DNA from: Nocardia vinacea
GTDB lineage: Bacteria > Actinomycetota > Actinomycetes > Mycobacteriales > Mycobacteriaceae
Assembly (NCBI RefSeq): GCF_035920345.1
Contig: NZ_CP109149.1
Span: 7,750,001 to 7,814,000, forward strand
Reading direction: 5' to 3'
Length of the DNA stretch: 64,000 nt
The notes under the pieces are model-generated. The model worked only from the letters and a program-made list of their open reading frames with translations, ran no database searches and was not told the DNA's origin. Below are positions 2,287 through 63,269 of the stretch, one piece after another (position 1 is the stretch's first letter; each line of letters opens with the position of its first letter). The translations under genes were made by a program, and so were the position numbers.

Positions 2287-2587
2287 GCTCCCGATACTCA
2301 CGCACACGCGCCGCGCTCGTCTCGGGCCAGTGGGGTGGTAGTGGACTGGTGTCATCGCCCATTCGTGGCTCGATCCCGCGGTATCCGGATGAGAATGGGC
2401 GGTCAGTGCATCGTCCCGGAACAAAATAGGCCGCTCGCACGCTGTATGTGCGAAGCCGACGCGAGCTACGCCCGTCGGGGGGCAGGATCGATGCCGCATC
2501 CGATGGGTTGTCGGTGGCGTCGGGGAGAATGGGCCGGAGTCGCACGAGCGATCCGATAATGCCGGACGCCGTATACGAGGAGAGATC
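2287..2587. other. Intergenic region upstream of the XPB operon; no gene seen
   Basis: Divergent spacer between the LysE gene and the XPB operon. I see no convincing coding sequence. Near its right end a GATAAT hexamer could serve as a -10 element, and a strong purine-rich ribosome-binding site (GAGGAGAG, about 2577-2584) sits just before the GTG of the first short repeat peptide at 2588. The XPB transcript therefore probably starts here and is translated first through the two small peptides. Confidence 0.4.
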
Positions 2588-2668
2588 GTGACCGAGCGCA
2601 GCGAGGGAACCATAGGCACAGCACCTGCGGTCGCAGCGGAGCCGAGCGCTAGCGAGGCGCAGCTGTGA
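2588..2668 (+). CDS. 26-residue repeat peptide, copy A (coupled leader ORF)
   Basis: Short ORF of 26 codons. It starts VTERSEGT, ends EPSASEAQL and has GTG as start. A strong GAGGAGAG lies 3-10 bases upstream. Its TGA is embedded in GTGA, whose GTG starts copy B, so translation should be coupled. The same peptide, with substitutions, recurs on the minus strand at 14269, 16159 and 25275, always next to a gene junction. Amino-acid conservation with the frame preserved in every full copy argues that the frame matters, but whether a stable peptide is made cannot be told. The function is unknown. Confidence 0.6.
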   Translation: MTERSEGTIGTAPAVAAEPSASEAQL

Positions 2669-2741
2669 CCGAGCGCAGCGAGGGAACCATAGGCGCAGCA
2701 CCTGCGGTCGCAGCGGAGCTGAGCGCTAGCGAGGCGGAGCT
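2588..2741 (+). repeat. Two tandem copies of a dispersed 77-bp element
   Basis: Two head-to-tail copies with a period of exactly 77 bases (2588, 2665), ending at the GTGA of the helicase start at 2742. Related copies occur at 14272-14349, 25278-25355 and, more diverged, 16159-16233 and 29821-29865, all in reverse orientation. Each full copy is bounded by GTGA on both sides, as if a 77-bp unit had been inserted or duplicated at a GTGA stop/start overlap. Confidence 0.9.
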
Positions 2742-2745
2742 GTGA
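2665..2745 (+). CDS. 26-residue repeat peptide, copy B (coupled leader ORF)
   Basis: Second tandem copy of the element, differing from copy A at only a few bases (ACA/GCA, CCG/CTG, CAG/GAG codons). It starts at GTG 2665, inside the stop of copy A, and its TGA lies within the GTGA that supplies the GTG start of the XPB helicase at 2742. AGCGAGGCGGAGCT places a GAGG about seven bases before the helicase start, so this copy carries the ribosome-binding site for the downstream gene. The three frames form a chain of four-base overlaps. Confidence 0.6.
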   Translation: MTERSEGTIGAAPAVAAELSASEAEL

Positions 2746-4400
2746 CCGACGGTCCGCTGATCGTTCAGAGTGACAAGACGCTGCTCTTGGAGGTCGACCA
2801 CGAGTTGGCCGGGGTGGCGCGGCAGGCTATTGCGCCGTTCGCGGAATTGGAGCGGGCGCCGGAGCATGTGCACACCTATCGGGTGACGCCCCTGGCGCTG
2901 TGGAATGCGCGGGCCGCGGGGCATGACGCCGAGCAGGTGGTGGATGCCTTGGTCAGCTACTCGCGGTATGCGGTGCCGCAGCCGCTGCTGGTCGACATCG
3001 TGGACACCATGGCCAGGTACGGCCGGTTGCAGCTGGTGAAGCATCCGGCGCACGGGTTGATGCTGGTCAGTCTGGATCGCGCGGTGCTCGAGGAAGTGCT
3101 GCGGCACAAGAAGATCGCCCCGATGCTCGGCGCCCGCATCGATGAGGACACCGTGGTCGTGCATCCGTCCGAGCGTGGCCGGATCAAGCAGATGCTGCTG
3201 AAGATCGGCTGGCCGGCCGAGGATCTGGCGGGCTATGTCGACGGGGAGGCGCATCCGATCGAGCTGGATTTCACCGGCGGCCAGTGGCATCTGCGCGACT
3301 ACCAGGAGATGGCGACCGATTCGTTCTGGGCCGGTGGTTCGGGTGTCGTGGTGCTGCCGTGTGGTGCGGGCAAGACGATGGTCGGCGCGGCCGCGATGGC
3401 CAAGGCGCAGGCCACGACGCTGATCCTGGTCACCAATACGGTGGCCGGACGGCAGTGGCGGCGTGAGCTGCTGGCCCGAACCTCGTTGACCGAGGACGAA
3501 ATCGGCGAATACTCCGGCGAGCGCAAGGAGATCCGTCCGGTCACCATCGCCACCTATCAGGTCATCACCCGCCGCACCAAGGGCGAATACAAGCACCTCG
3601 AACTCTTCGACAGCCGCGATTGGGGCCTGGTCATCTATGACGAGGTGCACCTACTGCCCGCACCGGTCTTTCGGATGACCGCCGATCTGCAATCGCGGCG
3701 CAGGCTCGGTCTCACCGCGACCCTGGTGCGCGAGGACGGCCGCGAGGGCGATGTGTTCTCGCTGATCGGACCCAAGCGTTACGACGCGCCGTGGAAGGAT
3801 ATCGAGGCCCAGGGTTGGATCGCGCCCGCCGACTGCATCGAGGTTCGGGTGACCCTCACCGATGCCGAGCGGATGGCCTACGCCACCGCCGAGCCCGAAG
3901 AGCGCTACAAGCTCTGTTCGACCGCGCGCACGAAAATTCCTGTGGTGGAATCGATTCTGGCTCAGCACAAGGATGCGCCGACCTTGGTGATCGGCGCGTA
4001 TCTGGATCAACTCGACGAACTCGGCGTCGATCTCAATGCGCCGGTAATTCAAGGTTCGACGAAAACCAAAGAGCGCGAAGAACTTTTCGATGCCTTCCGG
4101 CGCGGTGAGATTCCGGTGCTGGTGGTGAGCAAGGTCGCGAACTTTTCCATCGATTTGCCCGAAGCCTCTGTCGCGGTGCAGGTTTCGGGAACATTCGGTT
4201 CGCGTCAGGAAGAGGCACAACGGCTCGGTCGACTGTTGCGACCGAAACACGATGGTGGCCAAGCCCACTTCTATTCGGTCGTCGCACGTGACACCCTGGA
4301 CGCCGAATATGCCGCGCACCGGCAGCGTTTCCTCGCCGAACAGGGTTACGCGTATCGCATTACGGATGCCGATGACTTGCTGGGGCCGGCCATCGGATAA
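2742..4400 (+). CDS. DNA repair helicase XPB (Ercc3/Rad25 type)
   Basis: 552-residue superfamily 2 helicase, homologous to archaeal/eukaryotic XPB and to M. tuberculosis Rv0861c, acting as a 3'-5' DNA-unwinding repair enzyme. An N-terminal damage-recognition-like region (about 1-180) precedes helicase domain 1, with Walker A LPCGAGKTMV near residue 208 and DEVH near residue 300. VREDGREGD contains the XPB-specific RED motif. Domain 2 carries QEEAQRLGRLLRPK (motif VI). The GTG start overlaps the stop of the upstream repeat peptide by four bases. DUF3239 and LysE genes follow within about 40 bases each and may be co-transcribed. Confidence 0.95.
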   Translation: MTDGPLIVQSDKTLLLEVDHELAGVARQAIAPFAELERAPEHVHTYRVTPLALWNARAAGHDAEQVVDALVSYSRYAVPQPLLVDIVDTMARYGRLQLVKHPAHGLMLVSLDRAVLEEVLRHKKIAPMLGARIDEDTVVVHPSERGRIKQMLLKIGWPAEDLAGYVDGEAHPIELDFTGGQWHLRDYQEMATDSFWAGGSGVVVLPCGAGKTMVGAAAMAKAQATTLILVTNTVAGRQWRRELLARTSLTEDEIGEYSGERKEIRPVTIATYQVITRRTKGEYKHLELFDSRDWGLVIYDEVHLLPAPVFRMTADLQSRRRLGLTATLVREDGREGDVFSLIGPKRYDAPWKDIEAQGWIAPADCIEVRVTLTDAERMAYATAEPEERYKLCSTARTKIPVVESILAQHKDAPTLVIGAYLDQLDELGVDLNAPVIQGSTKTKEREELFDAFRRGEIPVLVVSKVANFSIDLPEASVAVQVSGTFGSRQEEAQRLGRLLRPKHDGGQAHFYSVVARDTLDAEYAAHRQRFLAEQGYAYRITDADDLLGPAIG

Positions 4401-13603: not shown

Positions 13604-13631
13604 AATCGTTTTCGGGCCGACCGTCGCTGCC

Positions 13632-13768
13632 GATCTTTTCGAGCGGCCTGCAAGCAGTCGCTGCTGACCTTTTCGAGCGGCCTGCAAGCAGTCGCTGCTG
13701 ACCTTTTCGAGCGGCCTGCAAGCAGTCGCTACTGACCCTTTCGAGCGACCTGCAAGCAGTCGCTACGG
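13632..13768. repeat. Four tandem copies of a 34-bp hairpin repeat
   Basis: Units begin near 13636, 13670, 13704 and 13738 with an exact 34-base period: TTTTCGAGCGGCCTGCAAGC then AGTCGCTGCTGACC. The core GCGACCTGCAAGCAGTCGC folds into a stem with one bulge (GCGAC/GTCGC plus TGC/GCA, loop AA). Single related copies occur at 37916-37948 and 40876-40904. They lie between the cspB terminator and the 3' end of the DUF2771 gene. There is no spacer diversity, so it is not CRISPR. Confidence 0.85.
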
Positions 13769-14272
13769 CGAGGTACTGATCGACCAAGCCGCGTGCGGCA
13801 CGTAGAACTCGCGGCCGGTTTCGTCGCGCGCGAGGATCGGCAGCTGCAATTCGATACCGACGAGCCGCAATTCGGGCTCCGGCTTCGAATCGATGGTGAC
13901 GGCGAGTGCGCCCTCGGGGTAGTCGTTGCGGCTCACTACCCGGTCCACCTTCTCGCCGGTAGGCATGGCGTAGACCAGCTGCGCCAGCCAGGGCGCGTCG
14001 GCGATCTTCTTCGGGAGCGACAGCTGCAGCGGGTATCCGGCGGGGACGTCCAGGGTGACGGTCTCGCCGTACTTGCAGTCCTCCATTTTCACTGTGCAGT
14101 ACAGGAATGGGGACACCGTGACGGTCTTGCCGTGGGCGTATGCGGTGACGGTCGGGTCGGGGTGGTCCGCGTTGCGGACGAACACCGTCAACACGCCGAC
14201 GAAGGCGACGGTGAACACCAGTAGGGCCGCCACACATAGCGCGACGACGGTGCGGGTACTCGGCTTGCTCAC
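13763..14272 (-). CDS. Exported DUF2771 protein (Rv0875c-like)
   Basis: 169 residues. A short basic N-terminus and one hydrophobic helix (RTVVALCVAALLVFTVAFVG) are followed by an extracytoplasmic domain with two cysteines (SPFLYCTVKMEDC), probably a disulfide. It belongs to DUF2771, restricted to mycolate-type actinobacteria; the role is unknown. The GTG start at 14272 overlaps by four bases the stop of a repeat peptide that itself overlaps the end of the MFS gene, so the three frames are translationally linked. Neighbour order equals Rv0876c-Rv0875c. The 34-bp repeats reach its 3' end. Confidence 0.85.
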   Translation of the reverse strand: MSKPSTRTVVALCVAALLVFTVAFVGVLTVFVRNADHPDPTVTAYAHGKTVTVSPFLYCTVKMEDCKYGETVTLDVPAGYPLQLSLPKKIADAPWLAQLVYAMPTGEKVDRVVSRNDYPEGALAVTIDSKPEPELRLVGIELQLPILARDETGREFYVPHAAWSISTSP

Positions 14273-14349
14273 GACTGCGCCTCGCTGGCGCTCGGCTCCG
14301 TCGCTAGCAAAGCTGCTGTGTCTTTGGTTTGTTCGCTGCGCTCACTCAC
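14269..14349 (-). CDS. 26-residue repeat peptide, copy C (coupler between MFS and DUF2771 genes)
   Basis: Same element as copies A and B: VSERSEQT at the start, EPSASEAQS at the end, 26 codons from GTG. The GTG lies eight bases inside the end of the MFS gene, and the TGA lies in the GTGA that starts the DUF2771 gene. GAGG in GCGAGGCGCAGTC sits seven bases before that start. Its middle differs from copies A/B (KDTAALLAT versus IGTAPAVAA) without frameshift. Confidence 0.6.
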   Translation of the reverse strand: MSERSEQTKDTAALLATEPSASEAQS

Positions 14350-16102
14350 AGATCGCGTCTCCTGTGCCTCGTTGCATGTGCTTAGTGTCGCTACCGCGCT
14401 CCTTGCCGCGTTGCGCGGCTCGGTCGGCGTCGGTGTGTCGGGTTGTCGCGACCTCCTGCTCGGCATGTTCGGGGCGATGGCCGCCGAGGCCGGGCAGCAG
14501 GGAGTGGCCGCGGTCGCTGATGAAGGTCTGCAGCAGCCCGAACAGCAGGATCGCGGAGATGAACGCGAAACCCTGCCAGTAGGTGGTCGGCATCAGCACG
14601 CCCGCCGCGCCGCCGAGAACCCAGCTGAGCTGCAGTACGGTCTCGGACCGGCCGAAGCCGGACGCGATCGATTCCGGCGGCAGATCGTCCTGGATGGAGG
14701 CGTCCAGCGATACCTTCGCCAGCGCGCTCGCACCCGCCGCGACCAGGGTGGCCAATGCGGCGCCGAGCAGATTGTCGAGGAAGACCGCGAGCAGGGCGAC
14801 CGCGCAGCAGGCCGCGGTGCAGCCCAGCACGATCAGTGACGGCTTGCCGAGTTCGATCCGGGCGCCGGTCGCATTGCCGACGAAATTGCCGATCGCCGCG
14901 GCCACGCCGACCACGCCGAGCATGGCGGCCTGCTGCCAGCCGCCGTGTTCGGTTGCCTTGGCGACGAAGGCCACATAGAACGTCAGGAAGCCGGTCAAGA
15001 CGCGAATGGCGCTATTGCCCCACAGTCCGGTCACGACCGCGCGGCCCAGCGGCTGCCTGCGCTTGCGCGGCGGAACCGTGGCTTCGGTTGCCGGACTGAA
15101 CACTTCGGTTTTCGCGTGATAGCTGAGGGTCGCCGGGACCTCGCCCTCGGTGACCTCGACCCAACGTGGGATGCGCAGGCTCAGGAAAGTTCCCGCGATC
15201 GCGATCGCGGCCGCCAGCACCAGTGCGCCATTGGAGCCGGCGATCGCGGCGGCGAGTGCGGCGACCGCGCCCGCGCCGATGGTGCCGCCGACCAGACCGA
15301 ATACGGTGAGCCGAGAGTTGGTGCGCACCAAGTCGATTTCGGGTGGCAGTACGCGTGGCGTCACCGCGCTCTTGAGCACCGAGAACGATTTACTGCCGAT
15401 CATCATGCACAGGGCGAGCGGATACAGCGCCCAGCTGTCGAAGGCGATGATCAGCACCACCGCGACCACCACGCGCAGAGCGAAGGAGGTAGCGAGTGCG
15501 AGGCGGCGGCCGCGCTGTAGTCGGTCCAGCATCGGTCCGATGAGCGGGGCGATCACCGCGAACGGGGCGATGGTAATCAATAGGTACAGCGCGACTTTGG
15601 TCTTGCTCTCCGCGGTCGCGCTGGCGAAGAACAGTGTGTTGGCCAGGGCCACCGCGATCGCGGCGTCCAAGGCGAAATTCGCCATGGTGGCGTAGGTCAG
15701 CGCGGTGAGGCCGGATTTGTCGGCGCCGTCGGCCTTGGCGGCGCGCTGGAAGGTTGCCACGCCGCGGGAGGTGAGTTCACGGCCGCGCATGGCGGCGACC
15801 CGGGTGACGGTCAGCTTGCGCGGAACGCGCTGGGGCTCGGCCGGGATTTCGGTCTCCGGCGGCGGGTCTGCCGGTTTCGCGGATCCGCCGGGCAGCGGCT
15901 TGGTCGGCGGTGCTTCGCGGCGTTGCGGTGGTTCGGGTCGCAGGGGCGGTAGCGAGGACCGGTGGGGCGGGTTGTGGGGTGGCGGGTAGCGGTCGTAACC
16001 GGGGTGACGCTGGATCGGTGGGGACTCCTCGCCATCCCACGGACCGCGGTCGGAACCGGAGGGATCGCGGGGAGTAGTCACAACCTCAATTCTGTCGTAC
16101 AT
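14342..16102 (-). CDS. MFS transporter with long Pro-rich N-terminus (Rv0876c-like)
   Basis: 586 residues. The first 110 or so are hydrophilic and Pro/Arg-rich (PPHNPPHRSSLPPLRPEPPQ), a probable disordered cytoplasmic tail. After that about twelve hydrophobic helices follow, beginning FALDAAIAVALANTLFF, with an APLIGPMLDRLQRGRR loop of the MFS type. It corresponds in position to Rv0876c; the substrate is unknown. ATG 16102 and GTG 16081 (VTTPRDPSG) are both possible starts. It is the middle gene of a minus-strand run from the cyclotransferase to DUF2771, with a repeat peptide at each junction. Confidence 0.88.
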   Translation of the reverse strand: MYDRIEVVTTPRDPSGSDRGPWDGEESPPIQRHPGYDRYPPPHNPPHRSSLPPLRPEPPQRREAPPTKPLPGGSAKPADPPPETEIPAEPQRVPRKLTVTRVAAMRGRELTSRGVATFQRAAKADGADKSGLTALTYATMANFALDAAIAVALANTLFFASATAESKTKVALYLLITIAPFAVIAPLIGPMLDRLQRGRRLALATSFALRVVVAVVLIIAFDSWALYPLALCMMIGSKSFSVLKSAVTPRVLPPEIDLVRTNSRLTVFGLVGGTIGAGAVAALAAAIAGSNGALVLAAAIAIAGTFLSLRIPRWVEVTEGEVPATLSYHAKTEVFSPATEATVPPRKRRQPLGRAVVTGLWGNSAIRVLTGFLTFYVAFVAKATEHGGWQQAAMLGVVGVAAAIGNFVGNATGARIELGKPSLIVLGCTAACCAVALLAVFLDNLLGAALATLVAAGASALAKVSLDASIQDDLPPESIASGFGRSETVLQLSWVLGGAAGVLMPTTYWQGFAFISAILLFGLLQTFISDRGHSLLPGLGGHRPEHAEQEVATTRHTDADRAAQRGKERGSDTKHMQRGTGDAICE

Positions 16103-16158
16103 CGGCGACTTGGGTTCAATTGCCGCTCCAAGCCGTCCGGAAAGGTGACCCGGCTCGC

Positions 16159-16233
16159 CTATGCCTCCACCTCGCCGGCGCTCGGTTCCGGCACGAGCGA
16201 GTGCTCGGCTGTGTTCCTGGTTCGCTCGCTCAC
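16159..16233 (-). CDS. Repeat peptide, copy E (degenerate, 24 residues)
   Basis: Diverged member of the 26-residue family (VSERTRNTAEH... to PEPSAGEVEA). GTG 16233 overlaps the TGA of the cyclotransferase gene by four bases as in other copies, but the frame ends in TAG, and the next gene (MFS) starts 57 bases further on, so downstream coupling is lost. Two codons shorter than the full copies. Confidence 0.5.
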   Translation of the reverse strand: MSERTRNTAEHSLVPEPSAGEVEA

Positions 16234-25041: not shown

Positions 25042-25278
25042 TCAAAGTCCGGTTTGCGCGCCTTTGTCGCCGCGGCGGGCGCCCCGGCGCTGGATCGCGA
25101 AGATCGTATAGCCGAGCAGGCCGACGGCCATACCCATCAGACACACCGGGCGGGCGGATTCCCAGCCGTCGATGGTCCACACGACGACGGTGGCGATCAG
25201 CCAGAGGGCGCTGCCGACCGCGAGGACCGGCCGTGGATCGGTGAAGCGCGGCGGGATCTGCGGGACATGCTGGGTCAC
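25042..25278 (-). CDS. DUF2530 membrane protein (Rv0879c-like)
   Basis: 78 residues with two transmembrane helices (PVLAVGSALWLIATVVVWTI and VCLMGMAVGLLGYTIFAI) and a basic C-terminal tail (QRRGARRGDKG). It matches the small DUF2530 family and stands next to the MarR gene as Rv0879c does to Rv0880. The GTG start is inside the stop of repeat peptide copy D. The function is unknown. Confidence 0.8.
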   Translation of the reverse strand: MTQHVPQIPPRFTDPRPVLAVGSALWLIATVVVWTIDGWESARPVCLMGMAVGLLGYTIFAIQRRGARRGDKGAQTGL

Positions 25279-25355
25279 AGCTGCGCCTCACTGGCGCTCG
25301 GCTCCGCTGCGACCCAGGGTGCTGTGTCTTTGGTTCTCTCGCTACGCTCGATCAC
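25275..25355 (-). CDS. 26-residue repeat peptide, copy D
   Basis: Full-length member: VIERSERT at the start, EPSASEAQL at the end. The TGA overlaps the GTG start of the DUF2530 gene by four bases, with GAGG seven bases before that start. Here the element lies at the 5' end of a divergent promoter region rather than between two collinear genes, so it is the first frame of the DUF2530 transcript, as copies A/B are for XPB. Confidence 0.6.
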   Translation of the reverse strand: MIERSERTKDTAPWVAAEPSASEAQL

Positions 25356-29820: not shown

Positions 29821-29865
29821 TCACGACTCCGCCGCGCCGGCGTTGGGCTCCTGACGCTCGCTCAC
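29821..29865 (-). pseudogene. Repeat peptide, copy F (14-codon remnant)
   Basis: VSERQEPNAGAAES followed by TGA. GTG 29865 overlaps the TGA of the DUF6928-like gene by four bases, and the stop again reads TCGTGA as in copy C, but the middle of the peptide is deleted and no gene starts at the end. It reads as a decayed copy of the 77-bp element. Confidence 0.45.
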
Positions 29866-34515: not shown

Positions 34516-35106
34516 CTAACTCTTGGCTTTCACCCGCGCCAGCGCATGTCCGGTCAGTGCGATGAGCGCGGTCTTGGCGGATTCCCGGTCCCTGGCGTCG
34601 ATCATCATCACCGGAACATCGGCGGATAGCGAGAGGGCATCCCGGATGGCCTCCTCGGGAAACTTGGGGGCGCCTTCGAATTCGTTGACCGCGACCAGGA
34701 ACGGTAGGCCGAGTTCTTCGAAATAGTCGACCGCGGCGAAACTTTCGTCCACCCGACGGGTATCGACCAGCAGGATCGCGCCGATCGCGCCGAGGCTGAG
34801 GTCGTCCCACATGAACCAGAACCGGTGCTGCCCGGGCGTACCGAACAGGTACAGCACCAGATCGTCGGACAGGGTGATCCGGCCGAAATCCATGGCGACT
34901 GTGGTGGTCGTCTTATCCGGGACCGCCGAGGTGTCGTCGATTTCGGAACTCAGATCGGTCATCAGCGCTTCGGTTTTCAGCGGAACGATATCCGAAACCG
35001 CGCCGACCAGCGTAGTTTTGCCGACCCCCATCTCGCCGGCTATCACGATTTTCGCCGAGACCGCGCGGGACGAGGTCTCGGGTGGTGCTTGTTCAGGTGC
35101 GGTCAT
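34516..35106 (-). CDS. Conservon GTPase (CvnD-like)
   Basis: 196-residue small GTP-binding protein. It has P-loop GEMGVGKTTLVGAVSD (about 24-39), LFGTPGQHRFWFMWDD (switch II, G3-like) and NEF in place of NKxD. This is the ATP/GTP-binding D component of actinobacterial conservons, which work with a sensor kinase, a roadblock protein and a DUF742 protein as a G-protein-like complex on the inner membrane face. Its ATG overlaps the stop of the kinase gene (ATGA). The B and C partners are absent here. It is highly similar to the D protein at 62667-63269. Confidence 0.9.
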   Translation of the reverse strand: MTAPEQAPPETSSRAVSAKIVIAGEMGVGKTTLVGAVSDIVPLKTEALMTDLSSEIDDTSAVPDKTTTTVAMDFGRITLSDDLVLYLFGTPGQHRFWFMWDDLSLGAIGAILLVDTRRVDESFAAVDYFEELGLPFLVAVNEFEGAPKFPEEAIRDALSLSADVPVMMIDARDRESAKTALIALTGHALARVKAKS

Positions 35107-38981: not shown

Positions 38982-39113
38982 CCAGCATTCCCCGTTAACT
39001 CTTTCTCCACAAGCGTCCCCCGGATGCTACGCGGTGTTATTGGCCGCGCGGGCGCGGCGTGTTCGCGGCCCCTGGTGTCTCGCGTCCGAGCCGTCGAGAC
39101 TCGCGACTTCGTC

Positions 39114-39605
39114 GCATGCGCTTCGACGGCTCGGACGCGAGACGGGCCGCGAACGGTCGCTCGTAAGACTCGCTCCGTTGTGGTCACTGATGGCAGGTCG
39201 TTCAGCACCCAATGCACACGCGCCCGATGGTCGAGCCCCGCGCGTGCGGCGCATGCGCTTCGACGGCCCGGACGTGAGACGGGCCGCGAACGGGTCGCTT
39301 GTAAGACTCGCTCCGTGGTGGTCGCTGATGGCGGATCGTTCAGCACCCAATGCACACGCGTCGGATGGTCGAGTCACGCGCCTGCGGCGTATGCGCTTCG
39401 ACAACTCGGACGCGAGACGGGCCGCGAACGGGTCGCTTGTAAGACTCGCTCCGTGGTGGTCGCTGATGGCGGATCGTTCAGCACCCAATGCACACGCGTC
39501 GGATGGTCGAGTCACGCGCCTGCGGCGTATGCGCTTCGACAACTCGGACGCGAGACGGGCCGCGAACGGGTCGCTCGTAAGACTCGCTCCGCAGTGGTCG
39601 ATTGT
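39114..39605. repeat. 138-bp tandem repeat array (three units plus a partial)
   Basis: Units begin at 39114, 39251, 39389 and 39527 (spacing 137, 138, 138). Units 2 and 3 are nearly identical; unit 1 is more diverged and the last is cut near 39605. Just before, 39076-39143 forms a large inverted repeat (GTCTCGCGTCCGAGCCGTCG and its complement). 138 is a multiple of three, so several frames remain open across the array; I take these as by-products rather than genes. It lies between the deacetylase and citA. Confidence 0.9.
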
Positions 39606-57691: not shown

Positions 57692-60600
57692 ATGCGTGAC
57701 GCCGCAAGGTCCGGCAGCAAACGCTGGGCGCTCGGCAACTGGGACCTGCGCTGGAAGGTTACGGCGGTCCTGGCCGTTCCGCTGGCAGTCGCGGTTGGGC
57801 TCGGCGTGTCCAGGATTACCACCGAGTTCGCCGACGCGAACCGACTGGACGCTGCCGCGAAGAACATCGAGACGATTCCCGCCGTCACCGCGCTGAGTGC
57901 GCAGACGGCGACGACCGCCGCTTCGCAGATGATTTCGATCATGCCGAACGTGTCGATCGTGTCGGACAAGAACCTGGCCGACCTCGACAAGGTCATCGCC
58001 GATGCCGAACAGTCGGGCGGCAAGCTCGACGGTGTTGCCGGTGCACGCGCGTCGCTGGACAGCATGATCACCCAGGCCAAGGCCATTCGTGCCCAGGGCA
58101 AGAACGTCACGACGCAGACACCGGCCGAAGTCATCGGGATGATCGACCAGGTCCGCAACGACAGTGTGCACATCGTCGAGACGACGGTCGGCCAGGTCAG
58201 CGACCAGGCCATCGAACAGTCGAAGCTGCGGCTGGTCGACTCGCTGAACACCCGTGCCGCACTGGTCGGTGAGGTCGCCGCATTCCCCGAGGTGCTGCGC
58301 GGTTCGGCGGCTGGCGTGCAGAACGCGATCACCGCGGCCAATACCGAGCGGGCGATGCTCAACGTGCTCGCCCACCGCTTTTCCGACGGCGACACCTCGA
58401 TCGCCGATCTGCGGGCTGGTATCGATAACCGGATCTCGCTGCTGACCAGCCCGGAGGCGCAGTCCGGCAAGATCCCGGTCGGTGATCTGAAGAATTCGCT
58501 CACCGGCAGCCTCGATGTCTACGAGCGCGTGGTCAACAAGTCCACCAAGGACATCGACACGGCGATGAGTTCGCTGGTGTCCAACGCCAATACCGGCGCG
58601 TGGACCTATACCGCAGTCGTTATCGCGACCATTCTCGCCGCGCTTTTGCTCGCGGTGTTCGTCGCGCGCTCGATGATCGTGCCGCTGCACCGGCTGCGTC
58701 TGGCCGCGCTGCGTGTGGCCGAGAGCGATCTGCCACACGAGGTCGCCCAGCTGCGTAACGGCGCGTCCCCCGAGGATGTGCCGCTGGAGCCGATGCCGAT
58801 CCGCAGCCACGAGGAAATCGGTCAGCTGGCCCGCGCCGTCGACGATATCCACGGCCAGGCGCTGCGTTTGGCCAGTGACCAGGCGCAGATGCGTGCCCAG
58901 GTCAACGACATGTTCGAAACCCTGGCCCGGCGCTCCAAGTCGCTCGTCGACCATCAGCTCAGTTTGATCGAGGCGATGGAGTACGACGAGAAGGATCCAC
59001 GCCTGCTGGAAAACCTGTTCCGGCTGGACCATCTCGCGGCTCGTATGCGCCGTAACGGTGACAACCTGCTGATCCTCGCCGGTACCCGGCAGCGGCGCAG
59101 CAAGTCCGCGCCGGTCGAGATCGCGGACGTGCTGCGTGCGGCGATCTCCGAGGTCGAGGACTACGAGCGCGTGAAGCTCGGTGCGACACCGCGTGGTTCG
59201 CTGGTCGAGCCCGCCGCCTCGGATATGGCGCACCTGTTCGCCGAGCTATTGGACAACGCGCTACGCGCGTCGCCGCCGGAGACCGACGTGAAGTTCACCT
59301 TCGCGCAGGGACACGACCAGGGCATGCTCATCGAGGTCGCGGACCGCGGCATCGGTATGCCGCCGAGTGAAATGGCCGACATCAACCGGCGGCTCGAGCA
59401 GACCGCCGAACCGGGTCCGGACACCGCGCGGCACATGGGTCTTTTCGTGGTCGGCCGATTGGCCGAGCGCCACGGACTCACCGTGCGCCTGCGCCCGACC
59501 TTCGATACCGCACGGGACCCCGGCGTCACGGTCACCGTGCAGGTTCCGGCCAATCTGATCGTGCTCGGACAGGGCCAGACCACCGCGATGCCGCAGGCGG
59601 CACCGCAGGTCGCCGCTGGGGCTCCGCAACGGCCGTCGGCCGCGGCGTCGATGCAGACGCGTGCGATCACCAGGACGCCCGGTGGCAATGTCATGGTCAC
59701 CGTCGATCCCGGTGTGAGCGGACCGATTCCGATGAGCAGTCCGGCACCGGCTGCGGGCAGCGGTCCGATTCCGTCGGCGGGCGGGCTGCCACAGCGTTCG
59801 CCCGGCTCGACCATGTCCTCGGGTGCCTCGGGGCTGCGTCAGGAACCGGCGCAACCGAATCCGACCCTGCGCCCATCGGCCGGACAGCCGCCGAGCGGTC
59901 CGCAGCGCGGCAAGCTCGCCGCGGCGAATCTGCCGAGACGCAATGTCACTCCCGGCGGTCCGCCGCCGAGTCGGCCAGGTGCCGAGCCGACGGTTTCCGG
60001 CGGTGGTCTGCCGCCTCGGAATCTGAATTCCGGTGGGCTGCCGCAGCGTCAGCCCGGCACGAATGGTGTGCCGGAGGGCGGTCAGCCGAGTGGCGGTCTG
60101 CCGCAGCGTCAGCCGGGCAGCAACGGTGCACCGCAGCGCGAGGGCGCGGGTGGTATGCCGCAGCGTGCGTCGGGGCTGAACGGTCTGCCGCAGCGCGAAC
60201 CGGGTGCCGGTGGTGTGCCGCCGCGCGATACCGGGGCGAGCCTGCCGCAGCGTGATGCGTCGGGTGGACTCCCGCAGCGGGAGCCTGGTTCGACCGGACT
60301 GCCGCAACGGGATTCGGCCGCCGGTGGCCTGCCGCAGCGGGATTCGGCCGCCGGTGGCCTGCCGCAGCGGGATTCGGCCGCCGGAGGGCTGCCGCAGCGG
60401 GAGCCGGGTGCTACCGGTCTGCCGCAACGTCAGTCGCCTGCGAGCGGTCTGCCGCCGCGGGAAACGCCGAACGGTTTGCCGCAGCGTGAGAGCACGGGCG
60501 GTCTGCCACAGCGTGAGAGCGCTAGTGGTCTGCCGCAGCGTGATGCTTTGGGTGGTCTGCCGCAGCGCGAACCCACCGGTGGTCTGCCGCAGCGTGAGAG

Positions 60601-61894
60601 CACCGGTGGTCTGCCGCAGCGTGAGAGCGCCGGTGGTCCGCCGAAGCGTGATCCGTTGCGTGATCCGTTGAGCAGTCTGCCGCAGCGGGAAACCACGGGT
60701 GGTCTGCCACAGCGTGAGAGCACGGGCGGTTTGCCGCAGCGCGAAAGTGCCGGTGGCTTGCCGCAGCGTGAGAGCACCGGCGGTCTACCGCAACGGGATT
60801 CCGCATCGAATGGTCTGCCGCAACGTGAGTCCGGTCTGGCCGGTATCCCGCCGCGCGACACCGGTTCGGGCTTGCCGCAGCGGGATTCCGCTTCCGGTGG
60901 TCTGCCGCAGCGTGATGCGCTGGGTGGTTTGCCGCAGCGGGAAAGCACCGGTGGTTTGCCGCAGCGTGAGAGCACCGGTGGTCTGCCGAAGCGTGATCCG
61001 TTGCGTGATCCGTTGAGTAGTCTGCCGCAGCGGGAAAGCACGGGTGGTCTACCGCGGCGCGATTCGGCCTCGAACGGCCTGCCGCAGCGGGACACCGGTT
61101 CGGGCTTGCCGCAGCGGGATTCCGCTTCCGGTGGCCTCCCGCAGCGGGAGGCGGGTGCTACCGGTCTGCCGCAGCGTCAGTCGCCCGCGAACGGCCTGCC
61201 GCAGCGTCAGTCGGGTGCGCAGCCACCGAGCGGCCTGCCCCAGCGCGACGGTCTGCTACCTTCCCGCGACAGCCTGCCGCAGCGGGAGTCGGCTGCTACC
61301 GGCCTGCCCCAGCGCGATCCGGGAGCGACCGTACTGCCGCGCAAGGAAGTTCCGCCGGGTGTCGGTCTGCCGCGACGGGATCGTGGTGCGGCCCAGCCCG
61401 CGGCCAGCGGTGAGACACCCGCGATGTCCGAGAGCGGGGCGACGACCGCACCGCGCGATCCGGGCCGGCACAGCTTCAAGCCCGATCCGGAGAAGGCGGC
61501 ATCGTTCTTCCAGACCAGGTTGCAGCCCGCGGCCGACTCTGATTCGGTGATGGGCGGGACACCGATCTTCGCCGAAATGATGTCGGCGTGGCTATCGGAT
61601 CCCAACCAGGACCGGTCCCAAGTTGCTGCCTCCTTCGAATCACCCGGCGACGAGGGCTGGCAGGCGGCCCGCCGCGCCAGCGAGGCCCAGGCCGAAACAA
61701 AGACGGCCGCCGGGTTGCCTCAACGCAATCCGGGCGGGAGGCTGGTCCCCGGCGGTGTCACCGGCAACGCCGATCGCACGACGCGTCGCGATCCAGAAAC
61801 GATCAGGTCCAGCTTGAGTCGTCACCAGCAGGGCGTCCGGGATGGCCGCGCAATGAAGGCAATGAACCTAACCGGAGATAAAGGAGACCGATGA
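57692..61894 (+). CDS. Conservon sensor histidine kinase (CvnA-like) with GLPQR repeat tail
   Basis: About 1400 residues. TM1 (about 21-41), an extracellular nitrate-sensor-like domain, TM2 (about 304-327), HAMP to about 380, and a GHKL ATPase with [18 protein letters not shown] near 518 and DRGIGM. Residues about 697-1232 are about fifty repeats of (G)GLPQRE/D-type units. A conserved C-terminal module follows: [45 protein letters not shown] and [16 protein letters not shown]. The start is uncertain (ATG 57692 or an upstream GTG/TTG). The TGA overlaps the ATG of the roadblock gene. Confidence 0.92.
59780..61390 (+). repeat. Coding tandem repeat, GLPQR type
   Basis: About fifty copies of a short unit with consensus (G)GLPQR(E/D/Q)S(x1-4), period about 30-36 bases, within the conservon kinase gene. 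Spacing and residues vary, and internal segments such as [16 protein letters not shown] are duplicated, suggesting repeated unequal exchange. The other conservon kinase (35103-37823) has only two GLPKR motifs. Confidence 0.9.
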
Positions 61895-62686: not shown

Positions 62687-63269
62687 TTCGACGGCACAGG
62701 TCGATACCCGCACCAGCAAACCGACTTCGGCAAAGATCGTGGTCGCTGGCGGCTTCGGTGTCGGTAAGACCACGTTGGTGGGTGCCGTCTCGGAGATTGT
62801 TCCGCTGCGCACCGAGGCGTTGGTGACCAATGCCAGTACCGGAATCGACAATCTGACCGGTATTCCGATGAAGTCGACCACCACGGTGGCGATGGACTTC
62901 GGCCGGATCAGCCTCGCCGACGATCTGGTGCTGTACCTGTTCGGTACGCCGGGCCAGTACCGCTTCTGGTTCATGTGGGACGACCTGATCCGCGGCGCCA
63001 TCGGCGCCGTGGTGCTGGTCGACACCCGCAGGCTCGAGGACAGCTTCGCGGCCGTCGACTACTTCGAAGCGCGCAATCTACCGTTCCTGGTTGCGCTCAA
63101 CGAATTCGACGACGCACCGAGGTATCCGATCGAGGACATCCGTCAGGCCCTCGCGGTGCCTGCGGATGTGCCGATCCTGTCCATCGACGCCCGTCGGCGC
63201 GAACCCGCCAAGCAGGCGCTGGTCTCGCTCACCGAGTACGCCCTACGCAAGGTCATGCAGGGCTACTGA
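62667..63269 (+). CDS. Conservon GTPase (CvnD-like)
   Basis: 200 residues. P-loop GGFGVGKTTLVGAVSEIVPL, switch region LFGTPGQYRFWFMWDD, and NEFDDAPRYP. GTG 62667 lies inside the end of the DUF742 gene (20-base overlap), completing a tightly coupled A-B-C-D operon. It is about 70 percent identical by eye to the D protein at 34516-35106. Confidence 0.95.
   Translation: MDSGVFDSTAQVDTRTSKPTSAKIVVAGGFGVGKTTLVGAVSEIVPLRTEALVTNASTGIDNLTGIPMKSTTTVAMDFGRISLADDLVLYLFGTPGQYRFWFMWDDLIRGAIGAVVLVDTRRLEDSFAAVDYFEARNLPFLVALNEFDDAPRYPIEDIRQALAVPADVPILSIDARRREPAKQALVSLTEYALRKVMQGY

Follow-up and report, generated by a model that had tools for sequence, protein, structure and literature searches.

A repeated element at an XPB-type helicase gene

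In the window (the whole stretch of 64,000 nt analysed here), a gene for an XPB/ERCC3-type helicase is directly preceded by two tandem copies of a short element, copies A and B, which are 96% identical (Table 1). A GTG opens the frame of each copy, and each frame ends in the GTGA that starts the next one, as an earlier note on this DNA had described for two 26-codon units; the GAGG that it placed 7 bases ahead of the last GTG is likewise found in the sequence. The 3' hairpin predicted for copy A pairs an arm at 2631-2637 with 2662-2668 (GCTGTGA). The SD-like gaggagag ahead of the first micro-ORF is probably the SD of the original XPB gene start, and in relatives where this gene start is uninterrupted (such as G084 and G083) an identical or near-identical gaggagag precedes it. 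At this locus two copies are present in the genome under study (G000), one in G117, and none in G084, G083, G105, and G057.

Further copies lie on the minus strand of the window. Copies C and D, which the earlier note had read as having the same design, are full copies, and copy E, which it had called decayed, is indeed shortened and has ATAG in place of its 3' RTGA. The MFS-type open frame that follows copy E ends just inside copy C. The reading of copy F as a decayed copy stands in part: both RTGA ends and an open frame can be recognized by eye, but its score (12.5 bits, E 0.33) is not significant alone. Similarly, ends of GTGA and a unit of 77 bp hold for many copies, but the ends are RTGA (R being G or A) and the length is variable. 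Units are commonly 77 or 80 nt, in arrays of up to 4 units in the own genome, and copies with both ends measure mostly 81 and 84 nt with the ends included (range 64-93). Rfam families gave no match above the gathering score in the window and four loci.

Table 1. Element copies, associated signals, and neighbouring genes in the window
Feature	Position	Strand	Evidence
SD-like gaggagag ahead of the first micro-ORF	2577..2584	+	read from sequence
Copy A, RTGA to RTGA, 26-codon micro-ORF	2588..2668	+	covariance model, 98.9 bits
Copy A 5' hairpin, RTG within the stem	2588..2610	+	covariation, helix 1
Copy A 3' hairpin, enclosing GAGG and the next start codon	2631..2668	+	covariation, pairing counts
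Internal SD-like GAGG, 7 bases 5' of the next RTG	2654..2657	+	read from sequence
Copy B, sharing a GTGA with copy A and another with the XPB start	2665..2745	+	sequence and covariance model
XPB/ERCC3-type helicase gene, starting at the 3' GTG of copy B	2742..4400	+	PF16203, E 1.3e-41
DUF2771 gene, starting at the 3' GTG of copy C	13763..14272	-	PF10969, E 1.4e-37
Copy C, full	14269..14349	-	covariance model, 91.2 bits
MFS-type transporter open frame 3' of copy E (start tentative)	14342..16162	-	PF07690, E 1.6e-17
Copy E, shortened, 3' RTGA lost (now ATAG)	16159..16233	-	covariance model, 60.1 bits
DUF2530 gene, starting at the 3' GTG of copy D	25042..25278	-	PF10745, E 9.1e-34
Copy D, full	25275..25355	-	covariance model, 93.1 bits
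Copy F, possible 45-nt remnant, both RTGA ends and an open frame (by eye)	29821..29865	-	covariance model, 12.5 bits, E 0.33

Other repeats were also seen in the window. A tandem array of about four 137-138-bp units occupies 39093-39600, each unit weakly matching the element model on the minus strand (13.8-20.8 bits). Four copies of a 34-bp unit, the last of them diverged, lie at and just behind the end of the DUF2771 gene that follows copy C (13623-13792). Dense direct repeats of 27 and 30 bp, with a period that is a multiple of three, fill 60005-61374 and perhaps belong to a repeat protein. A 364-nt inverted repeat (34551-34914 and 62871-63234, 28 kb apart, 78% complementary) perhaps reflects paralogous genes.

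Copy number and distribution

A BLAST search with the two units found 43 places in the own genome of 10.36 Mb. A covariance model (R1), built from 58 copies (57 distinct) after a profile from fetched places, raised this to at least 139 places at E <=0.01, with 150 candidates scored. Both numbers are far beyond chance and bear out the description of the element as dispersed. For 136 of the 139 places the sequence was fetched; DTGA stood at both ends of 107 (hereafter two-ended copies), and the 29 without one or both DTGA ends were left out of the frame and target counts.

The genus-wide search that the earlier note had proposed scored about 38 candidates in each of 118 sampled genomes and returned a match at E 1e-4 in at least 111 of them. 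Across the family, with 15 candidates scored in each genome, a match at E 0.001 was found in at least 26 of 301 genomes and 3 of 31 genera. Diverged relatives of the element were seen in two other genera (g13 and g16; loci L353-L366). Nine of 11 fetched regions of g13 could be parsed; each has RTGA at both ends and a 9-base arm for which full pairing with the 3' end is possible when G-T counts as a pair and the best of 14 offsets is taken. Plasmids or phages as vehicles of spread were considered and rejected, as neither collection gave a match at E 0.001 to one 158-base query.

On the 10.36 Mb chromosome, 81 of the 136 fetched copies lie within 2 Mb of dnaA (7146523), as a raw count. With respect to replication, 71 of 117 array-first copies are on the leading strand, again as a raw count.

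Position at gene starts and stops

Genes around the copies were recognized with a codon model trained on 268 frames, which superseded one with 63 training frames that, at a strict threshold, had placed 48 of the 107 two-ended copies in frame with a gene downstream. A gene runs in frame from the 3' RTG in 79 of 93 array-last copies, and the best frame is on the opposite strand in 1 of the 93, while random RTGA at the same loci gave an in-frame gene in 469 of 1940 cases and a gene on the opposite strand in 812 of 1940. Among 91 array-first copies, 47 have a 5' TGA that is precisely the stop codon of a gene; for random RTGA this is 82 of 1940. The placement at gene junctions that had been proposed from the window is thus also seen across the genome, and placement follows gene starts rather than being scattered. 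GAGG at -7 from the 3' RTG is present in 89 of the 93 array-last copies, and only 33 of the 91 array-first copies have an SD-like sequence ahead of the 5' RTG.

A conserved frame with a free peptide

Length is divisible by three in 91 of the 107 two-ended copies, and one open frame is present in 90. An open frame was found in 71 of 79 copies at gene starts but in only 8 of 14 elsewhere (Fisher p 0.006). Seventeen two-ended copies have no open in-frame micro-ORF, and 8 of these stand before a gene. Frames are therefore mostly kept, and the frequent frameshifts that would have spoken against a coupler were not found among these copies.

The earlier note had held that the peptide frame is kept despite substitutions. 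This is true of the frame, but the peptide itself varies, and variability is flat over the codon positions, at 0.82, 0.75, and 0.85 bits for the 81-nt class and 0.83, 0.89, and 0.78 bits for the 84-nt class. One common class has an additional base in the 5' block that is compensated elsewhere in the unit, and part of the peptide is therefore read in another frame. The frame is kept and the peptide is free, which is how a translatable spacer would look. A functional peptide is unlikely, all codon positions being equally variable.

Covarying hairpins enclose both start codons

Two hairpins were proposed from folds of single sequences and counted on an alignment (A1) of 57 distinct sequences. Paired cells amount to 92.0%, against 84.2% when shuffled, a figure that leans toward the proposed structure because the structure was drawn from the same sequences. 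The covariation score was 0.343 against 0.193 for shuffled alignments, with none of 500 shuffles as high and slid versions of the structure at or below 0.096. Changes on both sides were found at 12 of 18 pairs, including 5 of 6 pairs in helix 1, where 93.8% of cells are paired. Only 25 of the 57 sequences form the pair proposed as outermost (columns 52 and 89). In the stems, 75 G-T pairs stand against 11 A-C, and this excess of G-T indicates that the coding strand is also the folding strand. Steps of GA/GA between pairs can be read from the sequences in both hairpins.

Together the two hairpins enclose both start codons and the internal GAGG, with the GAGG and the next start codon in the 3' stem. 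Of the 57 distinct sequences, 39 have C-G and 18 have U-A at the pair that includes the initial base of the 3' start codon; C-G or T-A is found there in 102 of the 107 two-ended copies. These covarying hairpins are an addition to what the earlier note had observed.

Empty sites in relatives

To read the state of the loci without the element, orthologous loci for 26 insertions were taken from five relatives (G117, G009, G045, G084, and G054). These 26 include all 16 single copies with G in the 5' and A in the 3' RTGA, the one A/G copy, and the one with T. A clean empty site, in which xxxRTGA is directly followed by the gene, was read by eye in a relative for 20 of the 26. This comparison, another that the earlier note had suggested, shows the element to be an inserted unit, and insertion at RTGA is well supported by the sequences compared.

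Another 26 single copies with G at both ends were treated in the same way. Sixteen had a readable empty site, with R = G in all 16, though at one of these a close relative has GTGC and at some the position is a few bases off; one more readable site comes from the XPB locus. The ten loci left out were filled or held a remnant (4377606, 3107630, 6112106, 3253504, 4872481, and 5333466), yielded nothing (379531 and 7356697), or lacked RTGA at the place (4725714, with CTGA, and 6181485).

The two ends of a copy do not always agree. The first base of RTGA is unlike between the ends in 32 of 133 copies (29 G/A, 2 A/G, and 1 T/A), and an empty site could be read for 11 single copies of the G/A kind (5' G, 3' A). 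At four of these loci (590344, 3419429, 8965563, and 25723) the empty site has G, and the 3' A would have arrived with the element. At the other seven (6882601, 7638559, 1276488, 9680585, 7158543, 3161405, and 9812998) it has A, which would make the 5' G the new base; at 7638559 both filled genomes have a 5' G and both empty ones A. Some of the relatives used at discordant loci are distant, and their flanks near the junction differ. Judging by the empty sites at 6078775 and 8279453, the odd base there arose later, in the own genome. With four empty sites of G and seven of A, neither end is simply that of the target. GTGA at both ends had been put forward as a possible 4-bp target duplication, and in its simple form this does not hold, as the ends differ in 32 of 133 copies and the empty site agrees with the 5' base at four loci and with the 3' base at seven.

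An arm of the element predicts the first base of the target

The partner of the 3' R in the arm is a C or a T in nearly every copy. We compared the arm base facing the 5' R in 87 array-first copies of the own genome (the 107 two-ended copies minus 16 that are not array-first and 4 with fewer than 5 arm pairs) and found G-C in 41, A-T in 26, G-T in 18, T-T and G-G in one each, and A-C in none. In other genomes, where 5 of 66 loci could not be parsed and 15 of the remaining 61 copies were not array-first, 46 copies gave 20 G-C, 14 A-T, 11 G-T, and one A-C; at least one of these (L051 in G045) is apparently orthologous to copy D. Overall, the 5' R and the arm can pair in 130 of 133 copies; 5000 shuffles within each set averaged 111.9 and never exceeded 122.

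The empty site is a better test of this rule because the 5' R is not always that of the target. C-arm insertions have empty sites with G in 19 cases and A in none, and T-arm insertions have G (a wobble pair) in 5 and A in 13, the letters having been read by eye (Fisher p 2.4e-6). Restricted to relatives with at least 90% identity, the counts are 18:0 and 4:10 (p 1.6e-5). The additional 26 loci in the C-arm set were picked by their G/G ends, which mark the arm, and blind to the empty site. We would like to note that both the shuffle and the test values overstate significance because the copies are related. In seven T-arm insertions the empty site has A and the filled 5' RTGA has G, an ATG to GTG shift at the start of the micro-ORF.

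Flank and element also share the same base more often than in shuffles at -1 (88 against 75.5), at -2 (51 against 36.3), and at +5 (100 of 122 against 84.1), with a weak rise at +6 (83 against 75.2) and no clear one at -3. The choice of target probably involves pairing with the arms of the element. That an arm inside the element appears to predict the first base of its target is new here; pairing with wobble would explain the rule, and annealing during template switching would explain it too.

Proposed mode of insertion and coupling

Positions, orientation, frames, covariation, empty sites, and the arm-target rule were all established by computation. Taking these together, we consider it likely that the element belongs to the MIRU kind of small, non-autonomous mobile repeats, that it inserts at the RTGA of start codons, and that its micro-ORF is coupled to the following gene by the 3' hairpin. 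Insertion would take place at the RTGA that is the start codon of the gene and often also the stop of the preceding gene. The element would then lie between two RTGAs, the first starting a micro-ORF of usually 26-27 codons that stops in the second, which is the start of the gene, with a -4 overlap. The RNA would fold into two hairpins, the 3' one holding the GAGG and the start codon of the gene. With both inside this hairpin, the gene should be translated mainly via re-initiation: a ribosome reading the micro-ORF would open the 3' hairpin and then re-initiate at the gene. Insertion would thereby be nearly neutral for the gene. This would account for a frame that is kept while the peptide is not, for the tolerance of tandem copies, and for an orientation that follows the gene.

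Translation, coupling, the effect of the hairpin, and the chemistry of insertion are what we infer from these sequences. Of the portable translational coupler proposed in the earlier note, the inserted unit with its own start, SD-like GAGG, and overlap stands as found, and the coupling is suggested by position and frame. A wider reading, which we hold to be plausible and just short of probable, is that the hairpin arms read the target (about NNRTGAN) by pairing with wobble, that insertion has no need of a Y1 transposase, that the start of the gene stays hidden until a ribosome on the micro-ORF opens it, and that MIRUs are distant or convergent members of the same class.

We also weighed whether the hairpins have any role in expression. 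The same mobile repeat might carry hairpins and RTGA pairings that serve transposition only, as structures of single-stranded DNA with no regulatory role, the frame being kept as broken copies harm the gene. The unconserved peptide, the position of both junctions inside hairpins, and the arm-target rule would all fit, and we regard this as quite possible, though we lean against it. The GAGG at -7 within the stem in 89 of 93 copies speaks against it, such a sequence being what an initiation site requires, an argument that is weak because GAGG is also part of the stem. A micro-ORF that makes a functional peptide or a sensing leader peptide would account for the conserved open frame, but third codon positions do not exceed the others in variability and the first half is read in different frames among the length classes, which makes such a peptide very improbable.

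The means of movement offers other choices. Replication might spread the element by template switching or microhomology, in which a strand with NNRTGA at its end would jump to a donor copy and back, with no dedicated enzyme. Such a process would agree with the raised likeness of flank and element from -2 to +5, with tandem arrays of near-identical units, with there being no candidate transposase, and with the arm-target rule, as a G-ending target strand on an A-type donor makes a G-T pair. The return jump, however, would need an A-C mispair at 4 of the 11 discordant loci, unless TGA alone is used, and we find this course rather unlikely. Less likely again is an element of IS200/IS605 type for which a Y1 (TnpA) transposase acts in trans. 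Such an element would have subterminal hairpins, insert at a tetranucleotide, and carry an arm that predicts the target, as is seen here, and the own genome has two nearly identical IS605-like copies. Nevertheless, the Y1 transposase (PF01797) is found in 20 of 118 genomes of the genus and is absent from 24 of the 29 genomes with at least 30 listed copies, many of them drafts, and the end of the resident IS605 bears no likeness to the element by eye. With its presence uncorrelated in the genus, the Y1 transposase was rejected as the mover, although a Y1 gene may have been present in the past or may have dropped out of draft assemblies. A MITE was rejected as well, since the element has no terminal inverted repeats; it starts with RTGANNGA and ends with RTGA, which by eye are not complementary. 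The two IS605-like copies (L045 and L046) lie 5.7 Mb apart, share 852 bp at 99% identity, and contain a Y1 transposase and a frame that by eye is TnpB-like.

If the coupled reading is right, the element amounts to a natural repeated experiment on coupling, in which the same module stands before dozens of genes with its frame kept and its peptide free. Its tandem arrays might also serve as typing markers outside Mycobacterium.

Comparison with known systems

MIRU repeats are used to type tuberculosis strains, and their life style has reportedly been known since 1997. PMC12548453, citing Supply et al. 1997, describes the MIRU as apparently mobile, inserting at start codons, and carrying an ORF coupled at -4. 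Other papers give MIRUs as short repeats of 46-101 bp (PMC3914561), report that the 77-nt 5' UTR of a gene in one mycobacterium consists wholly of a MIRU, the gene being leaderless in another (PMC4128351), and report less mRNA of a gene when the repeat length before it is shorter (PMC2734929). The MIRUs of one intergenic region are said in PMC4213456 to occur only in M. leprae and the tuberculosis complex; in contrast, we saw MIRU-type units (L237-L316) in many mycobacterial species.

These units came from a scan of named genomes with a MIRU core as query, which gave at least 116 stretches; 77 of the 80 with a listed title are from Mycobacterium or Mycolicibacterium, 36 are untitled, and a few may be from other actinobacteria. 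DTGA stands at both ends in 95 of 155 usable matches among these stretches. Among the matches listed, 46 distinct ones outside tandems include 33 of in-frame length and 30 with an open micro-ORF, and their ends match the flank at +5 (37 of 46 against 20.0) and +6 (25 of 46 against 14.2), with no clear match at R (31 against 27.0; 8 G/A and 4 A/G). R1, run on 60 of the at least 116 stretches, gave 27 weak matches, the best at E 0.014.

The element and the MIRU are alike in length class, dispersal, DTGA at both ends, tandem arrays, start-codon insertion, -4 overlap, a micro-ORF, and an SD-like sequence before the second start. The element meets this description with many short, partly tandem units, an in-frame gene start at 79 of 93 copies, and an open frame in 90 of 107. 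Where MIRU copy number at one locus varies between strains, the element was seen to vary between species, with two, one, or no copies at the XPB locus. Its sequence matches that of the MIRU weakly at best on the 60 stretches compared, a short GAGCGNAGCGA core being common to both by eye, and its host genus differs. By eye, RTGA is inside the 3' stem in the element and adjoins the stem in the MIRU. The R rule is not clearly seen in the MIRU, whose ends match the flank at +5 and +6. With a shared life style, weak sequence matches, and no clear R rule in the MIRU, we describe the element as working like a MIRU and do not file it as one.

A search of the open-access literature found no paper on such a repeat in Nocardia, and none of the titles and abstract beginnings covered gives an account of pairing-guided MIRU insertion; neither result is proof of absence. 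The family, its covarying hairpins, and the arm-target rule were thus not found in the open-access literature searched, and the kind itself is known from mycobacteria.

TnpA-REP is a Y1 protein, and REPs are not known to be built around start codons. As short structured repeats in many copies, REPs with TnpA-REP (PMC8266576) resemble the element, whereas here 98 of 118 genomes lack Y1. IS200/IS605 elements such as IS608 (PMC5934647) share with it subterminal hairpins and, as the statistics of the arm-target rule suggest for the element, a tetranucleotide read by pairing. The element differs from them in having no transposase gene inside and in that Y1 is missing from most copy-rich genomes. 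The models of RNA unfolding and re-initiation in PMC12548453 have, like the element, a start codon in a stem opened by the ribosome and a -4 overlap; the difference is that the presumed coupling module here rides on a mobile repeat.

The literature searched offered no explanation for the spread of MIRUs and their siting at start codons. The element would be a second family beside the MIRU. Its insertions are many, empty sites can be read in close relatives, and a rule relates element to target; taken together, these make the mechanism of insertion testable.
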